NCBI GenBank assembly: GCA_029212845.1
Contig: JARGPD010000012.1
Location: 1-43,831, forward strand
Direction: 5' to 3'
Origin: Planctomycetota bacterium
GTDB taxonomy: Bacteria; Planctomycetota; UBA1135; GCA-002686595
DNA: 43,831 nucleotides
Position numbers and translations under genes: made by a program. Under the pieces are notes generated by a model. It saw only the letters and a list, made by a program, of their open reading frames with translations. It had not been told where the DNA came from and searched no databases. Every line of letters begins with the position of its first letter. Positions within the stretch are counted from its first letter, which is position 1. Shown here piece after piece: positions 3,277 through 40,412 of the stretch.

Positions 3277-4059
3277 ATGCTGCGCACTTCGTTCCCGACT
3301 TCCATGGCCCTGCGAACCACCACCCCCACCCTGGACCTCGACCAGGGCCCGTACCGCCTGCGCTTCGCAAGGACCGAGGCCGACGTCGATGCGGTCGCCA
3401 AGCTCCGCCACCGCGTGTTCCAGGTCGAGCTCGCCGGCGGCGAGCCCAACGCCGACGGCGCCGACCGCGACCGCTTCGACGAGCAGTTCGATCACCTCAT
3501 GATCGAGGACCGCGACGAGGGCGTGGTCGGCACCTACCGGCTGCAGGTGGCGGCCAACGCGCGCGAGGCCGAGGGCTTCTACACCGCCAGCGAGTTCGAC
3601 CTCGCCCCGCTCGAGCCGATCCTCGAGGAGGCCATCGAAGCCGGTCGTGCGTGCGTCGCCTCGACCCACCGCAAGGGCCTCGCCCTGTCGCTCCTGTGGC
3701 GTGGCCTGGCCGAATACCAGCGCCACAACGGCAAGCGCTACTTCTTCGGCTGCTCGTCGATCACCAGCCGCGTGCCCGCCGAGGGCCTCGCCACCTACGC
3801 GTGGCTCGAGGACCAGGGCCACCTGCACCAGCACTTCCAGCTGAGCCCGCGCCCCGAGCTGGCCTGCCACGCCAACGGGCAGGCCTTCCAGGGGGTCGTC
3901 ACCGGCGTGGCGCCGCTCTTCCGCATCTACCTGCGCTACGGCGCCAAGGTCTGCAGCCTGCCCGCGGTCGACAGCGAGCTGGGCACGATCGACTTCGTCA
4001 CCATGCTCGACCTCGAGGACCTCGCGCCGGGCACGGTGGAGAGCTTCGGAGTCCGCTGA
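3277..4059 (+). CDS. OlsB-like GNAT-fold N-acyltransferase (putative ornithine/amino-acid lipid synthesis)
   Basis: A protein of about 260 residues resembling the COG3176/OlsB family, which transfers a 3-hydroxyacyl chain from acyl-ACP to the alpha-amino group of ornithine, giving a lyso-lipid. Family-like segments are LRHRVFQVE near the N terminus, DRFDEQFDHL, GTYRLQVA, the acyl-CoA/ACP-site-like GRACVASTHRKGLALSLLW, YFFGCSSIT, and the C-terminal YLRYGAKVCSLPAVDSELG followed by TIDFVTMLD. The frame stays open upstream to 3082, but that stretch looks non-coding; the ATG at 3277 is chosen, with 3304 as alternative. Its stop overlaps the start of the next gene (TGATG), an acyltransferase of the type that completes ornithine lipid. 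The substrate amino acid cannot be read from sequence. Confidence 0.8.
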   Translation: MLRTSFPTSMALRTTTPTLDLDQGPYRLRFARTEADVDAVAKLRHRVFQVELAGGEPNADGADRDRFDEQFDHLMIEDRDEGVVGTYRLQVAANAREAEGFYTASEFDLAPLEPILEEAIEAGRACVASTHRKGLALSLLWRGLAEYQRHNGKRYFFGCSSITSRVPAEGLATYAWLEDQGHLHQHFQLSPRPELACHANGQAFQGVVTGVAPLFRIYLRYGAKVCSLPAVDSELGTIDFVTMLDLEDLAPGTVESFGVR

Positions 4060-4847
4060 TGGCGCGCGCCCTCGCCGCACCCCTGGCGATCCTGCGGGGC
4101 GCCGCCATCGTCCTCTGGACCCTCGCCGCCTGGTCGGTCTGGATCGGCGTGCTGGCCCTCGGTAGCCAGCGCTCGGCGCGCCTGCGGCCGCGCATCATGG
4201 GGCGCTGGAGCCGCGGCTGCCTGTGGGTCTTCGGCGGACGGATCGAGGTGGTCGGCACGCCACCCGAGGCGCCCTTCCTGCTGGTCTCGAACCACCTGTC
4301 GTACGTGGACGTGATCGTGATCGCCTCGGCCGCTCCGGCGCGCTTCCTGTCGCGCGCGGACGTGGCCGACTGGCCCGGCATCGGACCGATCGCGCGCTCG
4401 GCCGGCACCCTGTTCATCGACCGCGCCGCCAAGCGCGACCTGCCGCGGGTGATCGCCCAGGTGCAAGGCGCCTTCGAGGCCGGCCACGGGGTCATCTTCT
4501 TCCCCGAGGGCACCTCCAGCGGCGGCGCCGAGGTGCTGCCCTTCAAGCCCTCGCTCTTCCAGTTCGCCGCCGCGACGGGCACGCCCGTGCACTGCGCCAG
4601 CCTCAGCTACGAGCGTCCGCCCGGTCGCGAGTCGGCGGCCAAGAGCTTGTGCTGGTGGGCCGACATGGCCTTCGGCAGCCACGCCTTCGGCCTGCTCGCG
4701 CGACCCGGCTTCACCGCCCGGCTGGAGTTCGCGCCCGAGCCCGTCGCCGCCGCCGATCGCAAGGACCTCGCCGCCCTCGCCCAGGCCCAGGTCGAGGCGC
4801 TCTTCGTCCCGACCGACGCCACGCGCGGAGCGGGGACGAGCGCGTGA
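4059..4847 (+). CDS. PlsC/OlsA-like 1-acyl-glycerol-3-phosphate or lyso-ornithine-lipid O-acyltransferase
   Basis: A 262-residue membrane-bound acyltransferase of the PlsC/LPLAT family. A hydrophobic segment spans about residues 5-35. The catalytic H-x4-D motif is visible in SNHLSYVDVIV, and the second conserved block is FFPEGTSSGG. In this family the enzyme O-acylates a lyso-lipid using acyl-ACP or acyl-CoA at the inner membrane face. The ATG overlaps the stop of the OlsB-like gene by one base, implying translational coupling. The pairing strongly recalls olsB-olsA, so O-acylation of a lyso-aminolipid is favoured over ordinary phosphatidate synthesis; that is inference from context. The downstream fusion gene starts with a GTG overlapping this stop. 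Confidence 0.88.
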   Translation: MARALAAPLAILRGAAIVLWTLAAWSVWIGVLALGSQRSARLRPRIMGRWSRGCLWVFGGRIEVVGTPPEAPFLLVSNHLSYVDVIVIASAAPARFLSRADVADWPGIGPIARSAGTLFIDRAAKRDLPRVIAQVQGAFEAGHGVIFFPEGTSSGGAEVLPFKPSLFQFAAATGTPVHCASLSYERPPGRESAAKSLCWWADMAFGSHAFGLLARPGFTARLEFAPEPVAAADRKDLAALAQAQVEALFVPTDATRGAGTSA

Positions 4848-7561
4848 CGCCCGCGCGCAGCACGCTCGCCAAGAAGCGCTGGTGGCTGCTCGGCTACCTG
4901 CTGCTGCTGGCGGCGAGCAGTCTGTATCAGGTCGCGCACGAGGACCCCGCGCGCCCCGGCGACAGCGACCTGGTCGCCGTCGAGCTCAGGCCCGAGCTCC
5001 CCACCGGGGGTCGCTTGGAAGGCAGCGAGCACGGCGTCCGGGTGATGCACCTCGACCTCGGCGCGGGCGACGGGACGCCGGTGCTGTTGCTGCACGGCAG
5101 CCCCGCCAGCGGGACCGAGCTGCGCGCCCTCGGCGAAGCGCTCGCCACCGCTCCGGGCGGCCAGACCCGGCGCGTGATCGTGCCCCAGCTGCCCGGCTTC
5201 GGCGACTCGGAGCGCGACGTCCCGGACTACTCGGCCAGGGCCGAGGCGGGCTACTGCCTGCAGCTGCTCGACCAGCTCGGCATCGAGCGCGTGCACGTCG
5301 TCGGCCACAGCATGGGCGCGGCCGTGGCCCTCTGCATGGTCGAGCGCGATGCCCTGCGCGTCGAGTCCCTCTCGCTCGTCGCCGGCCTCGGCGTGGTCGA
5401 GCTCGAGCTGTTCGGCACGCACCTGCTCAACCATCTCGTGCACGGCGCCCAGCTGAACCTGCTGCGCCTCGCGCACCATGGGCTGCCGCACTTCGGGGCA
5501 CTCGACGACTCGCTCCTGAGCGTCGAGTACGCGCGCAGCTTCTACGACACCGACCAGCGGCCCCTGCGCGAAGTGCTGGAGACCTGGGCCGGGCCGAGCC
5601 TCATCCTGCACGGCCAGGGCGACTTCCTCGTGCCGCCGGCCGCCGCCAAGGAGCACGCCCGGCTGCTGCCCCAGGCCGAGCTGCTGCTGCTCGAGAGCGA
5701 CCACTTCCTGGTGTTCACCGACCCGACCGGGACCGCCGACTACCTCGGGCGCTTCCTCGAACGGGTCGAGGCTGGCCAGGCGCCGACGCGCGGCCAGGCC
5801 CTCGCCGCCGACCCGAGCCTCCTAGCGACCAGCACCGCGCCCTTCGACCCGTCCTCGATCCCGCCCGCCACCGGTCCTGCCCTGCTGCTGTTGATGCTCT
5901 TGTTCGCCGTCGGCACGCTGGTCTCCGAGGACCTCGCCTGCATCGCCGCGGGCATGCTCGTCGCCCAGGGTCGCGTCGAGTTCTGGCCGGCGGCCCTGGC
6001 CTGCTTCCTGGGCATCTACATCGGCGACATGCTGCTGTACCTGGCCGGGCGCTTCTTCGGCGCGGCCGCCATCAACCGCGCGCCGATCAACTGGGTGCTG
6101 AGCGAGAAGAGCGTCACGCGCGCCTCGGCCTGGTTCGACAAGAACGGCGCGCGCGCGGTCTTCCTCTCGCGCCTGATGCCGGGCCTACGCCTGCCGACCT
6201 ACTTCGCCGCCGGCGTGCTGCGCGCGGGCTTCTGGCGCTTCACGCTCCTGTTCTTCCTCGCCTCCTTGCTGTGGACGCCGCTGCTCGTCGGCTTCGCCGC
6301 CTGGCTCGCGACCCACGTCACCGACTCGATGGCCTGGTTCGAGGAGTACTCGCTGCTCGCCTTCCTCGCGCTGCTCGCCGCCGTGCTGCTGGTCGAGCGC
6401 GTCCTGATCCCGCTCTGCACTTGGCGCGGCCGGCGGCTCTTCGTCGGCCGGGTGCGCCGCTGGACGCGCTGGGAGTTCTGGCCGCGCTGGCTCTTCTACC
6501 CGCCGGTCATCCTGCACATCGCGCGCCTCGCCCTGCGCCATCGCAGCCTGGCCCTGGTCGGCGCCGTCAACCCCGGCATCCCCGGCGGCGGCTTCGTCGG
6601 CGAGTCCAAGGCCCAGATCCTCAGCGCCTTCGGCCCAACATCCGAGGCGATCGCCGACTGGATCCTGCTCGAGCCAACCAGCGCCAAGAGCGAGCAGCCC
6701 GCGGGCCGCCGAAGCGACCTTCAGGATCGGGGGACGACCGCCGAGGCCGCCAGCTCCACCTTGGACCCGGGTGACGCTGGCGTGCCCCGCTCGAACCGCG
6801 AGCGCGCGCGCGCCTTCGTCGCCGAGCATGGCCTACCCGTGGCCTTCAAGCCCGACGTCGGCGAGCGCGGCGCGGGGGTGCGCATCCTGCGCACCGAAGC
6901 CGAGCTCGACGACGCGCTCGCCCGCCTCGATCGGCCCTGCCACCTGCAACGCTTCGCGCCGGGTCCAGAGTACGGCGTCTTCGTCGTGCGGCGCCCCAAG
7001 GCCGATGGCAGCGCCGGCCCGATCGAGCTCTACTCGATCACCGCCAAGCGACCCTACGCCGTCACGGGGGACGGCAGCAGCAGCCTCGAGCGCCTGATCC
7101 TCGCGGACCGGCGCGCGGTGGTGCAGGCCAAGCAGCACTTCGAGACCCACGCCGAGCGCCTGCAGGAGGTGCCCGCCGCCGGGGAAGAGGTCGTGCTCTG
7201 CGACCTCGGCACCCACTCGCTCGGCGCGCTCTTCCTGGACGCGAACGACGAGGGCACCGAGGAGCTGCGCGCGGCCCTCGCCCAGGTGTGCGAGCCCTTC
7301 CGTGGCCTGCACTTCGGCCGCTTCGACCTGCGCGTCGCACCACCCCACGAGCTCGGCTCGGGCCGCGGGATCGCGGTCATCGAGCTCAACGGCATGACCG
7401 CCGAGGCGGCCCACATCTACGACCCGCGCCATGGCGTGGGCTACGCCTGGCGCACCCTGTGCGACCAGTGGACCCTGGCCTTCGAGATCGCCGCGGCCAA
7501 CCACGCCCGCGGTGCCAGCTACCCCAGCCTCGGCACGCAGCTGCGCGCGCTCTTCCGCTAG
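4844..7561 (+). CDS. Alpha/beta-hydrolase :: DedA/VTT membrane :: ATP-grasp-like three-domain fusion
   Basis: A 905-residue fusion protein. Residues 13-31 form a membrane anchor. An alpha/beta-hydrolase follows, with oxyanion HGSP (84-87), nucleophile elbow GHSMG (Ser156), Asp260 in GQGDFLVPP and His287 in ESDHF. Residues 340-535 are a DedA/SNARE-associated (VTT) domain with several membrane helices and the family motif FLSRLMPGLRLPTYFAAG (440-457). Residues 576-905 resemble an ATP-grasp ligase: NPGIPGGGFVGESK (576-589), VAFKPDVGERGAGVRI, and the metal-site-like ELNGMTAEA (from 847). A low-complexity stretch of about 35 residues interrupts this domain near 620-650. The GTG start overlaps the PlsC stop (GTGA). 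DedA proteins are linked to lipid translocation, so the gene probably belongs to lipid modification; substrates are unknown. Confidence 0.85.
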   Translation: MTPARSTLAKKRWWLLGYLLLLAASSLYQVAHEDPARPGDSDLVAVELRPELPTGGRLEGSEHGVRVMHLDLGAGDGTPVLLLHGSPASGTELRALGEALATAPGGQTRRVIVPQLPGFGDSERDVPDYSARAEAGYCLQLLDQLGIERVHVVGHSMGAAVALCMVERDALRVESLSLVAGLGVVELELFGTHLLNHLVHGAQLNLLRLAHHGLPHFGALDDSLLSVEYARSFYDTDQRPLREVLETWAGPSLILHGQGDFLVPPAAAKEHARLLPQAELLLLESDHFLVFTDPTGTADYLGRFLERVEAGQAPTRGQALAADPSLLATSTAPFDPSSIPPATGPALLLLMLLFAVGTLVSEDLACIAAGMLVAQGRVEFWPAALACFLGIYIGDMLLYLAGRFFGAAAINRAPINWVLSEKSVTRASAWFDKNGARAVFLSRLMPGLRLPTYFAAGVLRAGFWRFTLLFFLASLLWTPLLVGFAAWLATHVTDSMAWFEEYSLLAFLALLAAVLLVERVLIPLCTWRGRRLFVGRVRRWTRWEFWPRWLFYPPVILHIARLALRHRSLALVGAVNPGIPGGGFVGESKAQILSAFGPTSEAIADWILLEPTSAKSEQPAGRRSDLQDRGTTAEAASSTLDPGDAGVPRSNRERARAFVAEHGLPVAFKPDVGERGAGVRILRTEAELDDALARLDRPCHLQRFAPGPEYGVFVVRRPKADGSAGPIELYSITAKRPYAVTGDGSSSLERLILADRRAVVQAKQHFETHAERLQEVPAAGEEVVLCDLGTHSLGALFLDANDEGTEELRAALAQVCEPFRGLHFGRFDLRVAPPHELGSGRGIAVIELNGMTAEAAHIYDPRHGVGYAWRTLCDQWTLAFEIAAANHARGASYPSLGTQLRALFR

Positions 7562-7758: not shown

Positions 7759-10700
7759 TTAGTGGCTGTCGAAGAGTCCCGAGGTGAAGGTCGCCTTGGA
7801 CTTGGGCGCGCTGGCGTCTGCCTTGCCGTGCTTGGCCTTGTCCTTGGCCTTGTCGAGCTCGCGCTCGAGGCGATCGATCTCGCGCTTGAGGGCTTCGATC
7901 TCGGCCTGGCGCTGCTTCTCCTTGCGGATGGCCTCGGCCTTCAGGGCAGCCTTCTCGATCTCCCTCGACTCGAGGCGGATGCGGTCGGCCTGGTGGCGGA
8001 TCTCTTCAGCCTCCTCGCGCACGCGGTCAGCCTCCTCACGCTCGCGCTCGACGCCACGGCGGGCGACGTCCGCGAGGCGGCGCGCGTCGATGGCCAAGGC
8101 GCGCTGGGCCTCGGCGTCACGGGCATGGACGCGAGCGGTCTCGCGCGCATCGGCCGCTTCGAGGTGGGCCTGTTCGGCGGCACGCAGCGCCGTTTCGGCT
8201 CCGACCCGAGCGACGTCGGCACGGACGCGGATCACGTCGTCGACCTCGACCGGGGTGCCGGTACTGGTCAGGACACGGACCCGGACCTCGCCGACGTCGG
8301 CGCCGATGCGCTCGCTGAGAACGCGCTGCACCTCGGCGCCGTGCGCCTTGCGTGCGTCGAAGGTGACACGCGCTTCGTGGGCGTCGTGGGCTTCGTGGAG
8401 CTCATGAACCTCGTGGGCGTCACCGCCGTAGCCGAGGTCGCCGAGGTAGCCCAGCTCGCCCAGCTCGCCCAGCTGCTCGAGGACCACGGCTTCGATCTCG
8501 AGGTCACCGAGGGGGTCGCCCTCGTGCAGCCGGAACTGCCCGATGAGCCCCGGGATGGGCTCGTCGCACTCGACCTCGCACTCCTCACCGGGCTCGCCCT
8601 CGCCCTCGATCAAGAGCTCGACCCACTGGGCCTCGGTGGGCAGCTTCAGCTCGCCCTTGGCGTCGGCGCGCTGGAAGAAGTTGTGCACCTCGCCCTTGGC
8701 CTGGCTGGCGTCGCCTTCGATGCGGAGCCCGCCCTCGCTCGAGTGCAGGCGGATGCGGTGGGCCTCCTTGGCCTTGCCCTCGGGGAGCCGCAGGGTGTCG
8801 AGCTTGGGCCCGTCCACGAGGGCGGTCAGGTAGCGCTCCTCAGCCTCCGAGTGCGCCCCTTCGCGCTTGAGCAGGTAGTCCCGGGCGTCGTCGCCCTGCA
8901 GCACCAGGAGGGCTCGCTCGAGGTCGCCGCTCCCGGCCTGGGCACGGTTAGCGGCTTCGAGCTGGGCCAGGACGGTGGAGAGCTCGGTCGCTTCGACCTC
9001 CTCGTCCGTCAGGTGCTCGCGCAGGTCAGCCATCTGCTCCAAGTAGGCCTGCTCCTGGACGAGCAGCTGGGCCTGCCTCTCGTAGTCCGCGGCCTCGAGC
9101 GCGTAGCGCTTCAGCGTGTTGTCGGTCGTCTCCACGCCGTCGAAGTCCCACTGCACGGCGGTCGGCAGGCGCTCTCCAGAGCTGGCCGGCTTGGCCTTCG
9201 GGTCGCCCTTGGGTGCCACGCTGAGCGCGTGGGTGAGCTTCGCGAAGCGCTTGTCGCCGTGCAGCCCAGCAAGGTCCGGGTCGTCGACCACGGCCGGGTA
9301 GTGGAAGCCCTTCTTGACCGAGGCGAACAGGCTCTCGAAGGCGGCGTCGGTCTTGCCCTGGCGCGCGAGGGCGCAGCCGACGTTGTAGTCGGCGACCTCG
9401 GGGGCCTCGCCCAGCTCGGCCTGACGGCGGAAGAGCTGTTCGGACGCGGCGTAGTCGCCGTCGTTGTGCACGGCCATGGCGTACTCGCGGATCACAGCGC
9501 CGTCTTCCGAGACGATGCGGGCCAGGGTGGCGTAGGCCTCGCGGCGCTCGGCCGGGCTGCCGCCGCGGCTGAGCTCTTCACGCAGCTCGCCAGCGCGCTT
9601 GGTCAGCTTGACGATCGCGTCGAAGCCGCGCGAGCTGCGCAGGTTGTCCAGGTCTCCGTCGGACTTGAGCAGGTCCACCTGGTCGAAGCCCATGCGCATG
9701 GCCTTCGCGAGGTGGCCGAGGCCGCCCTGCACGTCGCCCATCAGCGCATCGCAGCAGGCCAGGTTGTAGGTCGCCGTCGCGACCCCATGGCCCAGCTCGA
9801 GCTCACGCTCGAAGTGGCGCTTGGCCTCGGCGTGCTGGCCCATGCCGATCTTCATGAAGCCGAGGCGCGCCTGGGCCATGGCGTGGTCGGGCGCGACCTC
9901 GGCGAGCTCCTCGAACACCGCGATGGAGCTGGCGTAGTCGCCCGAGCGGAACAGCGCTTCGCCCTCGTCGTGCAGCTCCGCGATGAAGGCCTCGCGGTCG
10001 TCGTCGGCGGTCGGCAGGGTGAAGCTCACGAGACCCGGCGTGGACTCGTCGTTGGTCGAGCCGATGCCCGGCGCGAGCAGCACCGAGCCGGCTAGGGCGA
10101 GGGCAGCAACGCCCTTCGACATGCCTGGGGATACCTTGTTCTTCATGATCATCGTGAGCCTCCGCTCGAAGTCCTTGGAATCGGGAGTGGTCGCGCACAG
10201 GCCTTGCATGGCGAGCTGCGCGGAAGTGGTCCTGCCGTGGGCCTCGATCAGCGCTTCGGCGAAGCGGCGTCGGTCCCCGGGGTAGGTCGAGAGGGCGAGC
10301 GCGTCGCAGGCCATCTCGGCATGGGTGTGCAGCTCGCGGCGGATCAGCCAGAAGAGCGGGTTCCACCAGAGGGCGGCGACGGCCAGCACGTCGAAGCGCG
10401 CGACCCAGTGGTCCTTGCGCGCGATGTGGGCCAGCTCGTGGGCGATCAGGCTGCGCGTGCCGAGATCGCTAACGACCGCGCCGAGCTGGCCGGCGGGCCA
10501 TAGGAGCTGGGGGCGGCCGAGGCACCAGACCGCCGGCGAGCCAACACCCTGGAGCACGCGCGTCCGCGGCGCGCGAACGTCTAGCCGCCCGGCCACGTCG
10601 GCGACCGCGAGGTCGAGCTCGAGCGGTCCCGCGGGCGAGCGCTTCACCATACGGTGGAAGCCGTGCACGCGGCTCTGGGCCCAGGCGAAGCAGGCCAGGC

Positions 10701-11190
10701 TGCCGACGCCCCAGAGGGCCAGCAGCCAGGTGCTCCAGGTCCAGTCGGGCAAGAGGTCGGCGAGGCGTCCGAGCAGCGTCGTCTCGGCGGCCGCGTGCTC
10801 GACCTCGGCCAGGTCGGCCAGGTAGAGCTCGAGCTCGAGCGGGGTCAGCTCGTTGGAAGCCGCCGCCGGACCTGTGGTCACCAAGGAGCCCTTGCCAGAA
10901 GCAAGGGCCCAGGAGTCCGACGTGGACGCCTGGTCGTTGTACGACCCATCCCCCCAGACGGGAGTCACGATCTTGGTAGCCACCGGCTCGGCGGACGGTT
11001 GGGTGAGGGAGCGCAGCCCGGCGCCGACCTGGCCTGCCATCGGCAGGGGCGGCATCACGAGCAGCGCGAAGCAGGCCAGCCACAGGGTGTGGTTGACCGC
11101 GGGGCGCGAGGGGTTGAAGCGCGCCACGATGGCCACGCCGACGGCCGCGCAGGCCGCCACGAGGGTGTTGCCCAGGATCCAGCTCAGCAT
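7759..11190 (-). CDS. Giant BlaR1/MecR1-like M56 metallopeptidase receptor with TPR and coiled-coil tail
   Basis: A 1143-residue protein. The N-terminal ~375 residues form an M56 (BlaR1/MecR1) peptidase: membrane helices near 1-25, 33-53 and 150-175, zinc motif HELAH (251-255), the probable third ligand Glu292 in HTHAEMACDAL, and a last helix near 355-375. In BlaR1 this domain cleaves the BlaI repressor after sensing. The usual penicillin-binding sensor domain is absent. Instead there are TPR-like repeats at about 390-650, an acidic linker, a His/Glu-rich segment near 922-950, and a charged coiled coil at about 1000-1120. The ATG overlaps the BlaI-type repressor's stop (ATGCTGA), preceded by a good ribosome site (AAGGAGG, 7-base spacing). 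The ligand is unknown; beta-lactam sensing is not supported. Confidence 0.88.
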   Translation of the reverse strand: MLSWILGNTLVAACAAVGVAIVARFNPSRPAVNHTLWLACFALLVMPPLPMAGQVGAGLRSLTQPSAEPVATKIVTPVWGDGSYNDQASTSDSWALASGKGSLVTTGPAAASNELTPLELELYLADLAEVEHAAAETTLLGRLADLLPDWTWSTWLLALWGVGSLACFAWAQSRVHGFHRMVKRSPAGPLELDLAVADVAGRLDVRAPRTRVLQGVGSPAVWCLGRPQLLWPAGQLGAVVSDLGTRSLIAHELAHIARKDHWVARFDVLAVAALWWNPLFWLIRRELHTHAEMACDALALSTYPGDRRRFAEALIEAHGRTTSAQLAMQGLCATTPDSKDFERRLTMIMKNKVSPGMSKGVAALALAGSVLLAPGIGSTNDESTPGLVSFTLPTADDDREAFIAELHDEGEALFRSGDYASSIAVFEELAEVAPDHAMAQARLGFMKIGMGQHAEAKRHFERELELGHGVATATYNLACCDALMGDVQGGLGHLAKAMRMGFDQVDLLKSDGDLDNLRSSRGFDAIVKLTKRAGELREELSRGGSPAERREAYATLARIVSEDGAVIREYAMAVHNDGDYAASEQLFRRQAELGEAPEVADYNVGCALARQGKTDAAFESLFASVKKGFHYPAVVDDPDLAGLHGDKRFAKLTHALSVAPKGDPKAKPASSGERLPTAVQWDFDGVETTDNTLKRYALEAADYERQAQLLVQEQAYLEQMADLREHLTDEEVEATELSTVLAQLEAANRAQAGSGDLERALLVLQGDDARDYLLKREGAHSEAEERYLTALVDGPKLDTLRLPEGKAKEAHRIRLHSSEGGLRIEGDASQAKGEVHNFFQRADAKGELKLPTEAQWVELLIEGEGEPGEECEVECDEPIPGLIGQFRLHEGDPLGDLEIEAVVLEQLGELGELGYLGDLGYGGDAHEVHELHEAHDAHEARVTFDARKAHGAEVQRVLSERIGADVGEVRVRVLTSTGTPVEVDDVIRVRADVARVGAETALRAAEQAHLEAADARETARVHARDAEAQRALAIDARRLADVARRGVEREREEADRVREEAEEIRHQADRIRLESREIEKAALKAEAIRKEKQRQAEIEALKREIDRLERELDKAKDKAKHGKADASAPKSKATFTSGLFDSH

Positions 11191-11599
11191 GGCTCGTCCT
11201 CCTTGGGCTCGGCGGTGGCAGCATCCGGCTGGTCGAGCTCGTCGAGCAGCGTGCGGAAGCGGTCGATCTCGGCGGGCGAGAAGCTGGCCGAGTGGACCAG
11301 GTTCAACAGCAGCGGCATCGAGCGTCCGTCGCAGACGCGAGTCGCGAGGTCATCGAGGCGCGCGCCGACGAGCTCGTCGCGGCTGACCGTCGGGCGGAAG
11401 CGGAAGGCTCGGCCGTCCTTCTCGCGGCTCACGAAGCCCTTCTCGATGAGGCGCGCCAGCAGGGTCTGGGCGGTGGTGTAGGCCCAGTCGCGGCCGCCGG
11501 CGAGCGGGTGGTCGAGCACGTCGCGCACGGTGCCGGCGCCGAGGTCCCAGAGGACCTTGCGCAGGCGGTCGTGGGTGACGCTCTGTTTCTGGGGGGGGG
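11184..11599 (-). CDS. BlaI/MecI-family transcriptional repressor (start codon lost in a C homopolymer)
   Basis: A winged-helix repressor of the BlaI/MecI/CopY family. The conserved core reads RLRKVLWDLGAGTVRDVL, then WAYTTAQTLLARLIEKGFV and RFRPTVSRDELV, followed by the dimerisation tail ending KEDEPC. The first available start in frame is GTG at 11528, but it would remove the first DNA-binding helix, which is clearly encoded upstream. Reading further up gives QKQSVTHDR and then a Pro-rich stretch from a C homopolymer, with an in-frame TAG near 11653 and no ATG, GTG or TTG between. The true start is probably corrupted there, so the upstream boundary given is approximate. The gene is coupled to the M56 receptor, its expected antirepressor, and a tandem operator-like site lies just upstream. 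Confidence 0.8.
11198..11204 (-). promoter_or_regulatory. Strong Shine-Dalgarno sequence for the M56 receptor
   Basis: AAGGAGG lies seven bases before the receptor ATG, inside the 3' end of the BlaI-type gene. Most other genes in this window lack such a clear site, so it fixes this start and suggests coupled translation of repressor and receptor. Confidence 0.7.
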
Positions 11600-36158: not shown

Positions 36159-37145
36159 ATGTCGATCCCCGTCCAGAGTCCGCCGGCTACGCCGGAGACC
36201 CCCCCTTCCACGTCCCAGGTCGAGATCCTTGCGCTGTTCGAGCGCCCGCTGCTCGAGCTGGTCTTCGAGGCCGCCCAGGTCCACCGCGCGCACCACGACC
36301 CGCGCGAGGTCCAGCGCTCCCAGCTGCTGTCGATCAAGACCGGCGGCTGCTCGGAGGACTGCGGCTACTGCAGCCAGTCGGCCCACTTCAAGACGCCGGT
36401 CGAGCGCGAGAAGCTGCTGGGCGTTGACGAGGTGCTGGCCGCCGCCGCGGCCGCCAAGGAAGGCGGCTCGGGTCGCTTCTGCATGGGCGCCGCCTGGCGC
36501 GAGGTCAAGGACGGCCCCGAGTTCGAGCGCGTGCTGGACATGGTGCGCGGCGTGCGCGAGCTCGGCATGGAGACCTGCGTGACCCTCGGCATGCTCAACG
36601 AGAGCCAGGCCGAGCGCCTGCGCGAGGCGGGCCTCGACTACTACAACCACAACCTCGACACCGGCCGCAGCCACTACGACGAGGTCGTCACCACCCACTC
36701 CTACGACGAGCGCCTGAACACCCTGGCCAACGTCCGCGGTGCCGGCCTGGCCGTCTGCGCCGGGGGCATCCTGGGCCTCGGCGAGAGCCGCGCCCAGCGC
36801 GCCGAGCTGATCGCCGAGCTGGCCTCGCTCGACCCCCAGCCCGAGAGCGTGCCGATCAACAACCTGGTGCCGATCGAGGGCACGCCGATCGGCGGCGAGC
36901 AGGGCACGGTCGACTGGTCCGAGATGGTCCGCACCGTCGCGGCCGCGCGCATCGCGATGCCCAAGAGCCGCGTGCGCCTGTCGGCCGGCCGCCGCGAGCT
37001 CGGCGAAGAAGCCCAGGCCCTGTGCTTCCTGGCCGGCGCCAACTCGATCTTCACCGGCGACGAGCTGCTGACGACGCCGAACCCGTCCGAGGACGTGGAC
37101 GCGGCCCTGTTCGAGAAGCTCGGCCTGTACGGCACGCGCCGCTAG
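36159..37145 (+). CDS. bioB: Biotin synthase
   Basis: A 328-residue radical SAM enzyme that inserts sulfur into dethiobiotin, the last step of biotin synthesis. The radical SAM motif is [16 protein letters not shown] (Cys64, Cys68, Cys71). Downstream blocks typical of BioB are [51 protein letters not shown] and [13 protein letters not shown], ending with the [2Fe-2S] ligand-bearing region [10 protein letters not shown] and [16 protein letters not shown]. All cluster ligands expected for the family appear present. The gene opens a biotin operon: bioB, the bioF-bioD fusion ten bases later, then bioA. Nothing odd in length or start. Confidence 0.97.
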
Positions 37146-37155
37146 GCGAGTCGCC

Positions 37156-39102
37156 ATGACGCGCCTGGACGACGAGCTCCAGGGTGAGCTGCAGGGCCTC
37201 GCGGCCGCCGGTCGGCTGCGGCGGCTGCCCGAGGCCGGCGCGGGCCTGCTCGACTTCACGAGCAACGACTACCTCGACCTGGCCGGGGATCCGCGGCTGG
37301 TCGAGGCCGCGCGCGCGGCGACCCTGGCCCACGGCGCCGGCGGGCGGGTGGCGCGGCTGCTCGGCGGGACCACCAGCGCGCGGGACCTCGAGCGCGCCGC
37401 GGCGGAGGCGTTCGGCAGCGAGGCGGCGCTGCTCTTCCCGAGCGGCTACCAGGCCAACCTCGGCATCCTGACCAGCCTCGCCGGACCCGACGACGTGCTG
37501 TTCTCGGACCGGCTGAACCACGCCAGTCTGATCGACGGCGCGCGCCTCTCGCGTGCCCGCGTTGCGGTCTTCGCCCACAACGACCCGGCCGACCTCGAGC
37601 GACTGCTCGTGCGTTCCACCGACGCGCGCCGGCGCCTGATCGTCGTCGAGGGCATCTTCTCCATGGACGGCGACCGCGCACCCCTCGCGGCCTACATCGA
37701 GCTGTGCGAGCGCCACGACGCCTACCTGGTCGTCGACGAGGCCCACGCCGTCGGCCTGGTCGGTAGCGACGGTCGCCCGGGCACCGGCACCGCAGCCACC
37801 CTCGCCGGCCGTCCGAAGCAGGCCGCGCGCCTGGCCGCGCGCCTCGTGACCGGCGGCAAGGGCCTCGGCGCCGGCGGCGCCCTCGTGCTGGGCTCCAGCG
37901 CCCTCGTCGGCGTGCTCGCCAACCGCGCCCGCTCGTTCATCTTCACCACCGCCCCGCCCCCCGCCCTGGTCGCCGCCTTCGCCAAGGGCATCGAGCTCGC
38001 GCTCCACGAGCGCGAGCGTGGCGAGCGCACCCTCGCCGGCGCCCGCCGCCTGGCCGCGGCCCTCGACCTCCCCACACCCGACGGCGCCATCGTGCCGATC
38101 CCGGTCGGCGCCGAAGAGGCCGCCGTCGAGGCCGCCACAGCCCTTGCCAGCGCCGGCTTCGACCTGCGCGCCGTGCGCCCGCCGACCGTGCCGGCGGGCA
38201 CCAGCCGCCTGCGCGCGGTCGTTCGCGCGGGCCACACCGACGCCCAGCTCGACGCCCTCGCGGCCGCGGTGCGCGGGCTCGGCCTGCCCACGCGACCCGC
38301 GACTGCTAGGGTCCCGGGATCGATGCCGACGGCCTCCGCGCCTGGGGACGAGCCCAGCCGAAGCTCCGCGGCGTCCCCCACCGACAAGGCTCCGCCCGCC
38401 GCAGCCCCGCGCTCGCCGGTCCTGTTCGTCGCCGGCACCGACACCGACGCGGGCAAGACCGTCGCCGCCGCCGTGCTCGTGCGCGCGATCGCCCTGGCCA
38501 AGAAGGGCGTCCACTACTGGAAGCCCGTGCAGACCGGCAGCGACTCGGACTCCGACACGGTCGAGCGCCTCGCCGGCCTGGAGCCCCACCAGGTCCAGCG
38601 CCCTGCGGTGCAGCTCGAGCTGCCGGCCTCGCCCCACGAGGCCGCGACCGCCGAGGACCGCACGCTCAAGCCCGCCACGATCTTCGCCGCCCTCGGTGGC
38701 CTGCGCCGGGTGCTCAGCCCCACGCCCCTGGTCGTCGAGCTCGCCGGGGGCCTGCAGGTGCCCTACACCGACCCTGCGCCAAACGCCCCGCCGGTGACCC
38801 AGCTCGACTGGCTGGCCGACGAGCGCCCCGCCTTCGTGCTGGTCGCGCGCAGCGGCCTCGGCACGCTCAACCACACGATGCTCAGCCTCGACGCCCTGGC
38901 CACGCGGCACCTCAGGCCGCGCGCCCTGGTGCTCGTCGGCGAGCCGCACCGCTCCAACCGCGAGACCCTCGCCGCCTGGTCCGGCCTGCGCGTGCTCGAG
39001 GTCCCACACCTCGACCCGCTCGACGCCGGCGCCGTCGAGGCCCTCGCGCGCCAGTGGTTCGTGGCCGGTCACATCGACCGGCTGCTCGCCCCACGCACCT
39101 GA
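37156..39102 (+). CDS. BioF-BioD fusion: 8-amino-7-oxononanoate synthase / dethiobiotin synthetase
   Basis: A 648-residue two-enzyme protein of biotin synthesis. Residues 1-385 are BioF, a PLP enzyme condensing pimeloyl thioester with alanine: DFTSNDYLDLAG, AALLFPSGYQANLG, DRLNHASLIDGARLS, VVDEAHAVGLVG and the PLP lysine in VTGGKGLGAGG (Lys235). Residues ~421-648 are BioD, which closes the ureido ring: P-loop GTDTDAGKT (427-435), HYWKPVQTG, LVVELAGGLQVP. They are joined by a Pro/Ala/Ser-rich linker (about 386-420). An internal ATG at 38323 could start BioD separately, and TAG occurs just upstream of it in another frame, so a frameshift artefact must be excluded. Gene order bioB-bioFD-bioA. 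Confidence 0.9.
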   Translation: MTRLDDELQGELQGLAAAGRLRRLPEAGAGLLDFTSNDYLDLAGDPRLVEAARAATLAHGAGGRVARLLGGTTSARDLERAAAEAFGSEAALLFPSGYQANLGILTSLAGPDDVLFSDRLNHASLIDGARLSRARVAVFAHNDPADLERLLVRSTDARRRLIVVEGIFSMDGDRAPLAAYIELCERHDAYLVVDEAHAVGLVGSDGRPGTGTAATLAGRPKQAARLAARLVTGGKGLGAGGALVLGSSALVGVLANRARSFIFTTAPPPALVAAFAKGIELALHERERGERTLAGARRLAAALDLPTPDGAIVPIPVGAEEAAVEAATALASAGFDLRAVRPPTVPAGTSRLRAVVRAGHTDAQLDALAAAVRGLGLPTRPATARVPGSMPTASAPGDEPSRSSAASPTDKAPPAAAPRSPVLFVAGTDTDAGKTVAAAVLVRAIALAKKGVHYWKPVQTGSDSDSDTVERLAGLEPHQVQRPAVQLELPASPHEAATAEDRTLKPATIFAALGGLRRVLSPTPLVVELAGGLQVPYTDPAPNAPPVTQLDWLADERPAFVLVARSGLGTLNHTMLSLDALATRHLRPRALVLVGEPHRSNRETLAAWSGLRVLEVPHLDPLDAGAVEALARQWFVAGHIDRLLAPRT

Positions 39103-39116
39103 CCCCCACCCCGACC

Positions 39117-40412
39117 ATGCCCACCAAGGACCCGGCCCAAGACCTCGTCGCCCGCGACGCCGCCGTCTGCTGGCACCCCTACACCCAGCACGGGCTCGAG
39201 GACGCGCCGCTCGCCGTGACCGGCGCGCGGGGCGCGACCCTGACCCTCGCCGACGGGCGCGAGGTGCTCGACGCGATCTCCTCCTGGTGGGCTGTCTTGC
39301 ACGGCCACGGCGAGCCGCGCGTCGCCGAAGCGATGGCCGCCCAGGCCCTGCGCCTGGACCACGTGCTCTTCGCCGGCGCGACCCACGAGGGCGCCGTGCG
39401 CTTGGCCGAGCGCCTCGTCGAGCTGTCGCCCACCGGCCTCGAGCGCGTCTTCTTCTCCGACGACGGCAGCACGGCCGTCGAGGTCGCGCTCAAGATCGTC
39501 GTGCAGTGGTGGCAGCACAAACAGCAGCCCGGCCGCCGCGTCTTCCTGGCCCTCGAAGGCGCGTACCACGGCGACACCTTCGGCGCGATGTCGATCGGCG
39601 ACCCCGACCCCTTCTTCCTGCCCTTCGCGCCCCTGTGCTTCGAGGCCGCGCGCGCGAAGCCCGACCTCGCTGCGATCACGGCCAAGCTCGACGAGCTCGG
39701 GCAGCGCGCCGCGGGCGTCATCATCGAGCCGCTGGTCCAGGGCGCCGCCGGCATGCTCATGCAGACGCCCGAGTTCCTGCGCGACCTGCGCGCCGTGTGC
39801 ACCGAGCGCGGCCTGCCGCTGATCGCCGACGAGGTCATGACCGGCTTCGGCCGCACCGGCGCGCTCTTCGCCTGCGACGTTGCTGGCATCGCGCCCGACC
39901 TGATGTGCCTCGCCAAGGGCCTGACCGGCGGCGCGACCCCCATGTCGGTGACCCTCGCCCGCGCCGAGCACTTCGACGCCTTCCTCTCCCAAGACCGCGG
40001 CGACGCCTTCTTCCACGGCCACACGTTCACCGCCCACCCGATCGGCTGCGCCGCGGCGCTGGCGTCCTTGGACCTAGTGCTCGAGCGCGACGTGCCCGCG
40101 CGACTCGAAGCGATCGGCGCGCGCATCCACGCGCACCTGGCGGCCGAGCTCGACCCCGCCCACACGACCGACCTGCGCCAGCGCGGCGGCATCGTCGCCT
40201 TCGACCTGGTCGCTCCGGCGACCAAGAACTCGTCGGGCGAGGCCACCGGCTACCTCGCCGGCGACCCCGCCGCCCTGCGCCGCCGGGCGATCGAGCTCGG
40301 GGTGCTCCTGCGCCCCCTCGGCAACGTGCTCTACGCCATGCCGCCGGCCTGCACCACCGACGCCGAGGCCGACCGCATCGCCGCCGCGATGGTCGCCCTA
40401 GCCTCGGGCTGA
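39117..40412 (+). CDS. bioA: Adenosylmethionine-8-amino-7-oxononanoate aminotransferase
   Basis: A 431-residue class III PLP aminotransferase that converts KAPA to DAPA, using S-adenosylmethionine as amino donor in most members. Blocks specific to BioA are CWHPYTQ near the N terminus and ISSWWAVLHGHGEP; generic class III blocks are SDDGSTAVEVALKI, LEGAYHGDTFGAMSIG, VIIEPLVQGAAGM and IADEVMTGFGRTG. The PLP lysine is Lys267 in LAKGLTGGATPMSV, and HGHTFTAHPIGCA follows. The length is normal. The ATG at 39117 is 14 bases after the fusion gene stop. With bioB and bioFD it completes the late biotin pathway; pimeloyl-making genes (bioC/bioH type) are not in the window. Confidence 0.95.
   Translation: MPTKDPAQDLVARDAAVCWHPYTQHGLEDAPLAVTGARGATLTLADGREVLDAISSWWAVLHGHGEPRVAEAMAAQALRLDHVLFAGATHEGAVRLAERLVELSPTGLERVFFSDDGSTAVEVALKIVVQWWQHKQQPGRRVFLALEGAYHGDTFGAMSIGDPDPFFLPFAPLCFEAARAKPDLAAITAKLDELGQRAAGVIIEPLVQGAAGMLMQTPEFLRDLRAVCTERGLPLIADEVMTGFGRTGALFACDVAGIAPDLMCLAKGLTGGATPMSVTLARAEHFDAFLSQDRGDAFFHGHTFTAHPIGCAAALASLDLVLERDVPARLEAIGARIHAHLAAELDPAHTTDLRQRGGIVAFDLVAPATKNSSGEATGYLAGDPAALRRRAIELGVLLRPLGNVLYAMPPACTTDAEADRIAAAMVALASG

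Follow-up and report, generated by a model that had tools for sequence, protein, structure and literature searches.

A single-chain hydrolase, VTT/DedA and ATP-grasp protein encoded beside olsBA-like genes: a probable machine for ornithine-type lipids in Planctomycetota and other phyla

We analyzed a stretch of 43,831 nucleotides (the window) of contig JARGPD010000012.1 from Planctomycetota bacterium (assembly GCA_029212845.1), and within it a protein of 905 residues encoded at positions 4844–7561 of the forward strand. The protein joins a transmembrane anchor, an alpha/beta-hydrolase, a VTT/DedA domain and an ATP-grasp ligase in one chain, and its gene directly follows olsB- and olsA-like genes. 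The protein is probably a machine, so far undescribed, for the modification, flipping and trimming of ornithine-type lipids; we consider it about an even chance that it is the unit of an aminolipid pathway responsible for tailoring and translocation. The parts are known, and their combination and conserved aminolipid context appear to be undescribed in the searchable literature. Most of the functional information is carried by the operon (olsB, olsA, DinB, TANGO2), which a preliminary description of this protein had left out, together with the wide spread of the architecture.

Results

One Reading Frame Encodes Three Domains

Translation of positions 4844–7561 (forward strand) yields a 905-residue frame with zero internal stops. 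Its GTG start overlaps the stop codon of the preceding acyltransferase gene (GTGA, 4844–4847). The frame is open on the 5' side as far as position 4223; the extra part falls within the overlapping acyltransferase gene, and the alignment of relatives begins at approximately residue 1. A whole-chain AlphaFold model built from 58 sequences reached a pLDDT of 88.8 and a pTM of 0.75. The open frame, the Pfam matches and the structure models together bear out the preliminary proposal of a single polypeptide with hydrolase, VTT and ATP-grasp domains in this order. A frameshift, an assembly artefact or an erroneous merge of genes, which that proposal had set out for checking, is ruled out because the same chain occurs as one frame in independent genomes and phyla, namely at 48 of 80 loci from approximately 12 phyla and in approximately 26 Bacteroidota genomes (12 of the latter confirmed by domain search).

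A pattern scan of approximately 85,000 species genomes identified at least 570 relatives of the ligase, and architectures were counted in the best 80. Besides the 48 triple fusions, these comprise 19 complete frames that encode just VTT and ligase, 8 frames cut by contig ends, 4 ligases with no match to VTT or hydrolase in their frame, and a single hydrolase-ligase frame lacking a VTT match. Hosts of the triple form are assigned to Planctomycetota, Acidobacteriota, Verrucomicrobiota, Gemmatimonadota, Bacteroidota, Balneolota, Rhodothermota, Calditrichota, Krumholzibacteriota, KSB1 and Myxococcota, and include a gammaproteobacterial metagenome-assembled genome (MAG); many of the hosts in these approximately 12 phyla are MAGs, the labels of which may err. 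The fusion or its VTT-ligase form is present in 22 of 61 planctomycete genomes. Among 296 Bacteroidota genomes, approximately 26 carry the triple fusion and approximately 30 the ligase alone.

A count of the partial architectures, as suggested in the preliminary description, gave no hydrolase-VTT protein without ligase among the full-length matches in the 61 planctomycete genomes; the VTT-ligase form without hydrolase is common (19/80). At one locus (L116) the VTT domain is encoded by a separate neighboring gene. At a gemmatimonadotal locus (L105, 2612–5330) the hydrolase is found in a frame that overlaps the VTT-ligase frame, reflecting either a real split or a frameshift. The ligase alone is the rule in one Bacteroidota clade. 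In a quick tree, the stand-alone ligases form one clade, and at least four well-supported label changes indicate that the hydrolase was lost or gained several times. The hydrolase is thus dispensable in evolution, as expected of a part involved in turnover.

The ATP-Grasp Ligase Domain

The C-terminal part of the protein (residues 546–905; 6479–7558, forward strand) is a complete ATP-grasp ligase according to the AlphaFold model, structure comparison with VIA-align and residue conservation. Pfam found only CPSase_L_D2 in this region, at a sub-threshold value of 0.0018; this was too weak for an assignment, which was decided by structure. A model of the C-terminal 384 residues (78 sequences) reached a pLDDT of 90.6 and a pTM of 0.88, and was matched to cyanophycin synthetase with a Z-score of 16.4 (rmsd 4.2 over 267 aligned residues), followed by GshF, LysX/ArgX, Ddl and RimK (Z 12–15). 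By the model, the nearest folds are amide and peptide ligases. The linker-looking segment after the last VTT helix (residues ~550–600) corresponds in the alignment to their N-terminal subdomain. The layout is an N-subdomain with an NPxxxxGG..GESK motif followed by the ATP-grasp core.

Residue conservation and charge were evaluated over 58 relatives, 55 of which have the hydrolase domain. In the ligase, K669, E709, K735, R826, D828, E847 and N849 are invariant (58/58), and the fold together with K669, K735, E847 and N849 places the domain in the ATP-grasp superfamily. Scores against the two NCBIfam cyanophycin synthetase models were far below the cut-offs (23.1 bits versus 877; 21.7 versus 850).

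The VTT/DedA Domain

The central membrane domain (residues 344–524; 5873–6415, forward strand) belongs to the VTT family, with a match to PF09335 at residues 366–484 (E-value 2.7e-18; 67.0 bits versus a gathering score of 33.9). Alignment with E. coli YghB using hhalign pairs D363, R443 and R449 with D51, R130 and R136, respectively. Both E362 and R449 are conserved in all 58 relatives, and D363, D395 and R443 in 57 of them. The three paired YghB residues are described as likely to bind protons and the phosphate in flippases of undecaprenyl phosphate (PMC10127716). The best-scoring DedA model was NCBIfam UptA, at 60.8 bits against a cut-off of 250, which does not place the domain in the UptA equivalog.

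The Alpha/Beta-Hydrolase Domain

Residues 44–309 (4973–5770, forward strand) form an alpha/beta-hydrolase domain, predicted to be periplasmic. Pfam matches to Abhydrolase_1 (residues 79–181, E-value 4.6e-23, 82.6 bits) and Abhydrolase_6 (residues 80–299, 2e-15), combined with an intact Ser-Asp-His triad, assign it to this family. The triad is conserved in nearly all relatives having the domain (S156, 54/55; D260, 55/55; H287, 55/55). Structure comparison yielded fold matches that include PlaF (6i8w) and ABHD6 (7ots). PlaF is anchored by an N-terminal helix and has its catalytic domain in the periplasm (PMC9132575).

Predicted Topology

The chain starts with a positively charged N-terminus and a first transmembrane helix (residues 1–31, with the helix at 4–31 in the model; 4844–4936, forward strand), and the last VTT helix is followed by a strongly basic segment (residues 525–545; 6416–6478, forward strand). 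Helix 1 is preceded by a net charge per sequence of +3.5 (residues 1–13) and followed by one of −1.0 (residues 32–43); around the last helix, the values are −0.8 for the preceding loop and +5.5 for residues 525–545. These positive-inside statistics predict that the N-terminus and the whole chain beyond the last helix are inside and the hydrolase outside, so that hydrolase and ligase would face opposite sides of the membrane. Combined with the two re-entrant hairpins of the DedA arrangement, the charge pattern predicts the ligase to be located where ATP is. Sidedness was derived from charge statistics and helix order rather than from model coordinates. The earlier suggestion that topology should be predicted and would constrain function is thereby supported.

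The Operon and Its Distribution

The two genes directly upstream encode an OlsB-like amino acid N-acyltransferase (3304–4059, forward strand; PF13444, 9.4e-29) and an OlsA-like lyso-aminolipid O-acyltransferase with NHxxYxD and FPEGT motifs (4059–4847, forward strand; PF01553, 2.5e-22). Their best NCBIfam matches are the L-ornithine N(alpha)-acyltransferase (122 bits, below the cut-off of 350) and the lyso-ornithine lipid O-acyltransferase (144.7 bits, below the cut-off of 300). In planctomycete relatives olsBA lies directly upstream of the fusion, save in one whose contig ends there; in some Verrucomicrobiota it is found downstream. A second, distant OlsB-like stretch in the window's own genome lies in a 657-residue frame, possibly OlsF-like (G000:C195:37044–37442).

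In many relatives, olsA is separated from the fusion by DinB-like and TANGO2 genes. Among 42 wider loci that have at least 6.5 kb on both flanks, we found DinB in 33, olsB in 31, olsA in 28 and TANGO2 in 19. At loci L031, L036, L042, L044 and others, TANGO2 with its invariant Cys2 and NRDE, and a DinB-like protein with invariant His pairs, are encoded within the aminolipid operon. In the window's own genome (88% complete) a search found no TANGO2 and only a chance-level match to DinB; as the operon of the window lacks both, neither is obligatory.

The fusion and olsB co-occur across genomes. Of 61 planctomycete genomes, 22 have olsB together with the fusion or its VTT-ligase form, 2 have olsB only (in one of these, G024, the contig with olsB also carries a VTT fragment) and 37 have neither (Fisher p 1e-14). 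A short olsB-like gene is present in 26/26 triple-fusion Bacteroidota genomes versus 13/270 others (p 6e-28), and 25 of the 26 have it on the same contig and strand within approximately 4.3 kb of the fusion; the Fisher p-values ignore shared descent and are hence inflated.

The stand-alone ligases of Bacteroidota occur mostly in a compact group of DinB, TANGO2 and ligase that is not beside olsBA, as at L147, L150, L151, L156, L157 and L159. A strong OlsB/OlsF-like gene is lacking in 12 of the 30 genomes, and an OlsF-like long-frame gene is located elsewhere in the other 18 (p 4e-6). Where loci were examined closely, the ligase is often followed by a small membrane protein of LysE-like appearance; of three searched against Pfam, one is a LysE-type translocator and two gave no hit. 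At L155 (4884–6671) a single frame of 596 residues encodes a fusion of TANGO2 with the ATP-grasp ligase, a further sign that the two act together. From these groups and this fusion, DinB, TANGO2 and the ligase appear to be a recurring core, to which a varying membrane partner and olsBA are added. Human TANGO2 binds acyl-CoA (PMC11867700), which by analogy is compatible with a role of its relative near acyltransferases.

Other Genes in the Window

A frame of 648 residues (37156–39102), by eye a BioF fused to BioD, is flanked by bioB-like (36159–37145) and bioA-like (39054–40412) genes. On the reverse strand, a frame of 1143 residues (7759–11190) resembles by eye a membrane peptidase of the M56 type that contains repeats and is charged towards its C-terminus, and is adjoined by a small BlaI-like regulator frame (11184–11528).

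Discussion

In the lipids made by OlsB and OlsA, the amino-acid head retains a free carboxyl, and ATP-grasp enzymes couple carboxylates with amines. From these two points, and from a layout like that of LpiA with AcvB, we infer a substrate, a bond, a direction of flipping and a hydrolase target as follows. On the inner leaflet, the OlsB- and OlsA-like enzymes would build an amino-acid lipid with two acyl chains. On the cytoplasmic side, the ATP-grasp domain would activate a carboxylate with ATP to form an amide or peptide bond; in the simplest case, the N-acyl-amino-acid lipid would be linked through its free carboxyl to an amino acid or an amine. The VTT/DedA domain would then carry the product to the outer leaflet, where the periplasmic PlaF-like serine hydrolase would cut acyl or headgroup bonds and so set the steady-state level. 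A more specific form of this proposal, which we hold only tentatively, is a tRNA-independent counterpart of MprF: ATP-driven peptidylation of an aminolipid, flipping by DedA/VTT and trimming outside, giving peptidyl-aminolipids in Planctomycetota, Acidobacteriota, Verrucomicrobiota and Bacteroidota, with DinB-like proteins and TANGO2 as further members.

Several points weigh against a tailoring and translocation role in an aminolipid pathway. The conserved VTT residues are those ascribed to the flipping of undecaprenyl phosphate, and a phosphate is absent from ornithine lipid. YghB E39 falls outside the VTT alignment without a clear equivalent, although E362, beside D363, may stand in for it. 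The amino acid used by OlsB/OlsA may not be ornithine, since both score below the curated ornithine-lipid cut-offs. Neither the bond nor the amino acid is fixed by sequence. To this may be added the inflated co-distribution statistics and the stand-alone ligases of Bacteroidota described above, both for their position away from olsBA and for the 12 genomes without a strong OlsB/OlsF-like gene.

The PlaF-like hydrolase, the adjoining acyltransferase and the acyl-CoA binding of human TANGO2 (PMC11867700) would also suit a remodelling cycle without headgroup addition, in which aminolipids or phospholipids are deacylated on the outer leaflet, VTT returns the products, OlsA re-acylates them, and the ATP-grasp domain activates or recycles the released carboxylate. 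We consider this rather unlikely: many VTT-ligase relatives keep olsBA without the hydrolase, which therefore cannot be the core of such a cycle, and the nearest ATP-grasp folds make amide bonds. Export of an N-acyl-peptide signal or secondary metabolite, rather than of a structural membrane lipid, would explain why the stand-alone Bacteroidota ligases are not beside olsBA and why some adjoin small LysE-like membrane proteins. In the fusion lineages, however, OlsA would add a second acyl chain and thus give a membrane lipid, and nearly every genome of this planctomycete order that carries olsB also has the fusion, which makes a signal or metabolite distinctly improbable.

A recycling of undecaprenyl phosphate by the VTT domain in the manner of UptA, with a ligase acting on a cell-wall precursor and an incidental aminolipid link, would account for the retained equivalents of D51, R130 and R136, for UptA as the best DedA model and for Ddl among the structural neighbors of the ligase. 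The UptA score is far under its cut-off, the conserved neighbors identified are olsB, olsA, DinB and TANGO2, and the co-distribution is with olsB; we see only a small chance that this explanation holds. That the three domains, which do occur apart in other proteins, were fused without any common pathway is hard to reconcile with an order conserved over approximately 12 phyla and with the conserved catalytic residues and operon, and is very improbable.

If the tailoring and translocation reading is true, genetic linkage provides a substrate class for a DedA/VTT protein, aminolipid pathways gain a modification and a flipping step, and bacterial TANGO2 and DinB-like proteins are placed in a lipid pathway. 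A 2024 review of aminolipids contains neither the word transport nor the word flippase (PMC11631085). For the addition of serine to glycine lipids in Bacteroides, the responsible ligase has yet to be identified (PMC12746155). The ATP-grasp family of the fusion is the right kind of enzyme for this step; it need not be the answer, because 13 of the sampled Bacteroidota genomes have a short OlsB/GlsB-like gene without such a ligase.

Comparison with Known Systems

The preliminary description did not give this architecture as characterized. It is absent from the DedA survey of Todor et al. (2023), where the fusions are with rhodanese, PAP2 and oxidoreductase domains only (PMC10127716), and no match for ATP-grasp with a VTT domain was found in the open-licence PMC literature, a description elsewhere being possible. 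Within the same literature there was no match for ornithine lipid with DedA or for DinB with an NRDE family protein, and the co-mention of ornithine lipid and ATP-grasp is the mere citation of an ATP-grasp review.

With the DedA flippases of COG0586 (UptA, YghB, YqjA) the fusion shares the VTT fold and the equivalents of D51, R130 and R136; it differs in the unmatched E39 and in the position of its VTT domain between a hydrolase and a ligase, the known COG0586 fusions being with rhodanese and PAP2 (PMC10127716). Cyanophycin synthetase, GshF, LysX/ArgX, Ddl and RimK have the fold and the ATP- and metal-binding residues in common with its ligase, which in contrast is membrane-tethered, 12–20% identical to them, equipped with its own NPxxxxGG..GESK N-subdomain and found in a lipid-gene context. 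PlaF, a membrane phospholipase A of Pseudomonas aeruginosa, likewise combines an N-terminal transmembrane helix with a periplasmic alpha/beta-hydrolase, but lacks a flippase or ligase part, whereas the hydrolase of the fusion runs on into both. The two adjacent upstream genes belong to the families of OlsB/OlsA ornithine-lipid and GlsB/GlsA glycine-lipid synthesis, for which the literature examined describes no partner of the hydrolase, VTT or ATP-grasp type.

Among Pfam hits up to an E-value of 1 there was no MprF synthase or flippase domain and no VirJ family domain (AcvB/VirJ hydrolases), and membership in MprF/LpiA or VirJ/AcvB was rejected on this ground. LpiA (synthase and flippase) with AcvB nevertheless provides a precedent for lysyl-phosphatidylglycerol (PMC13135905), to which the fusion would be analogous, assembled from unrelated folds in one chain. 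The proposed system and MprF/LpiA with AcvB/VirJ have in common the cytoplasmic synthesis, the flipping and the turnover by a periplasmic alpha/beta-hydrolase of an amino-acid-bearing lipid, by genetically linked components (PMC13135905). The fusion differs in using an ATP-grasp domain rather than a tRNA-dependent transferase and DedA/VTT rather than the MprF flippase domain, in having all three activities in one chain, and in having aminolipid rather than phospholipid genes as its neighbors.

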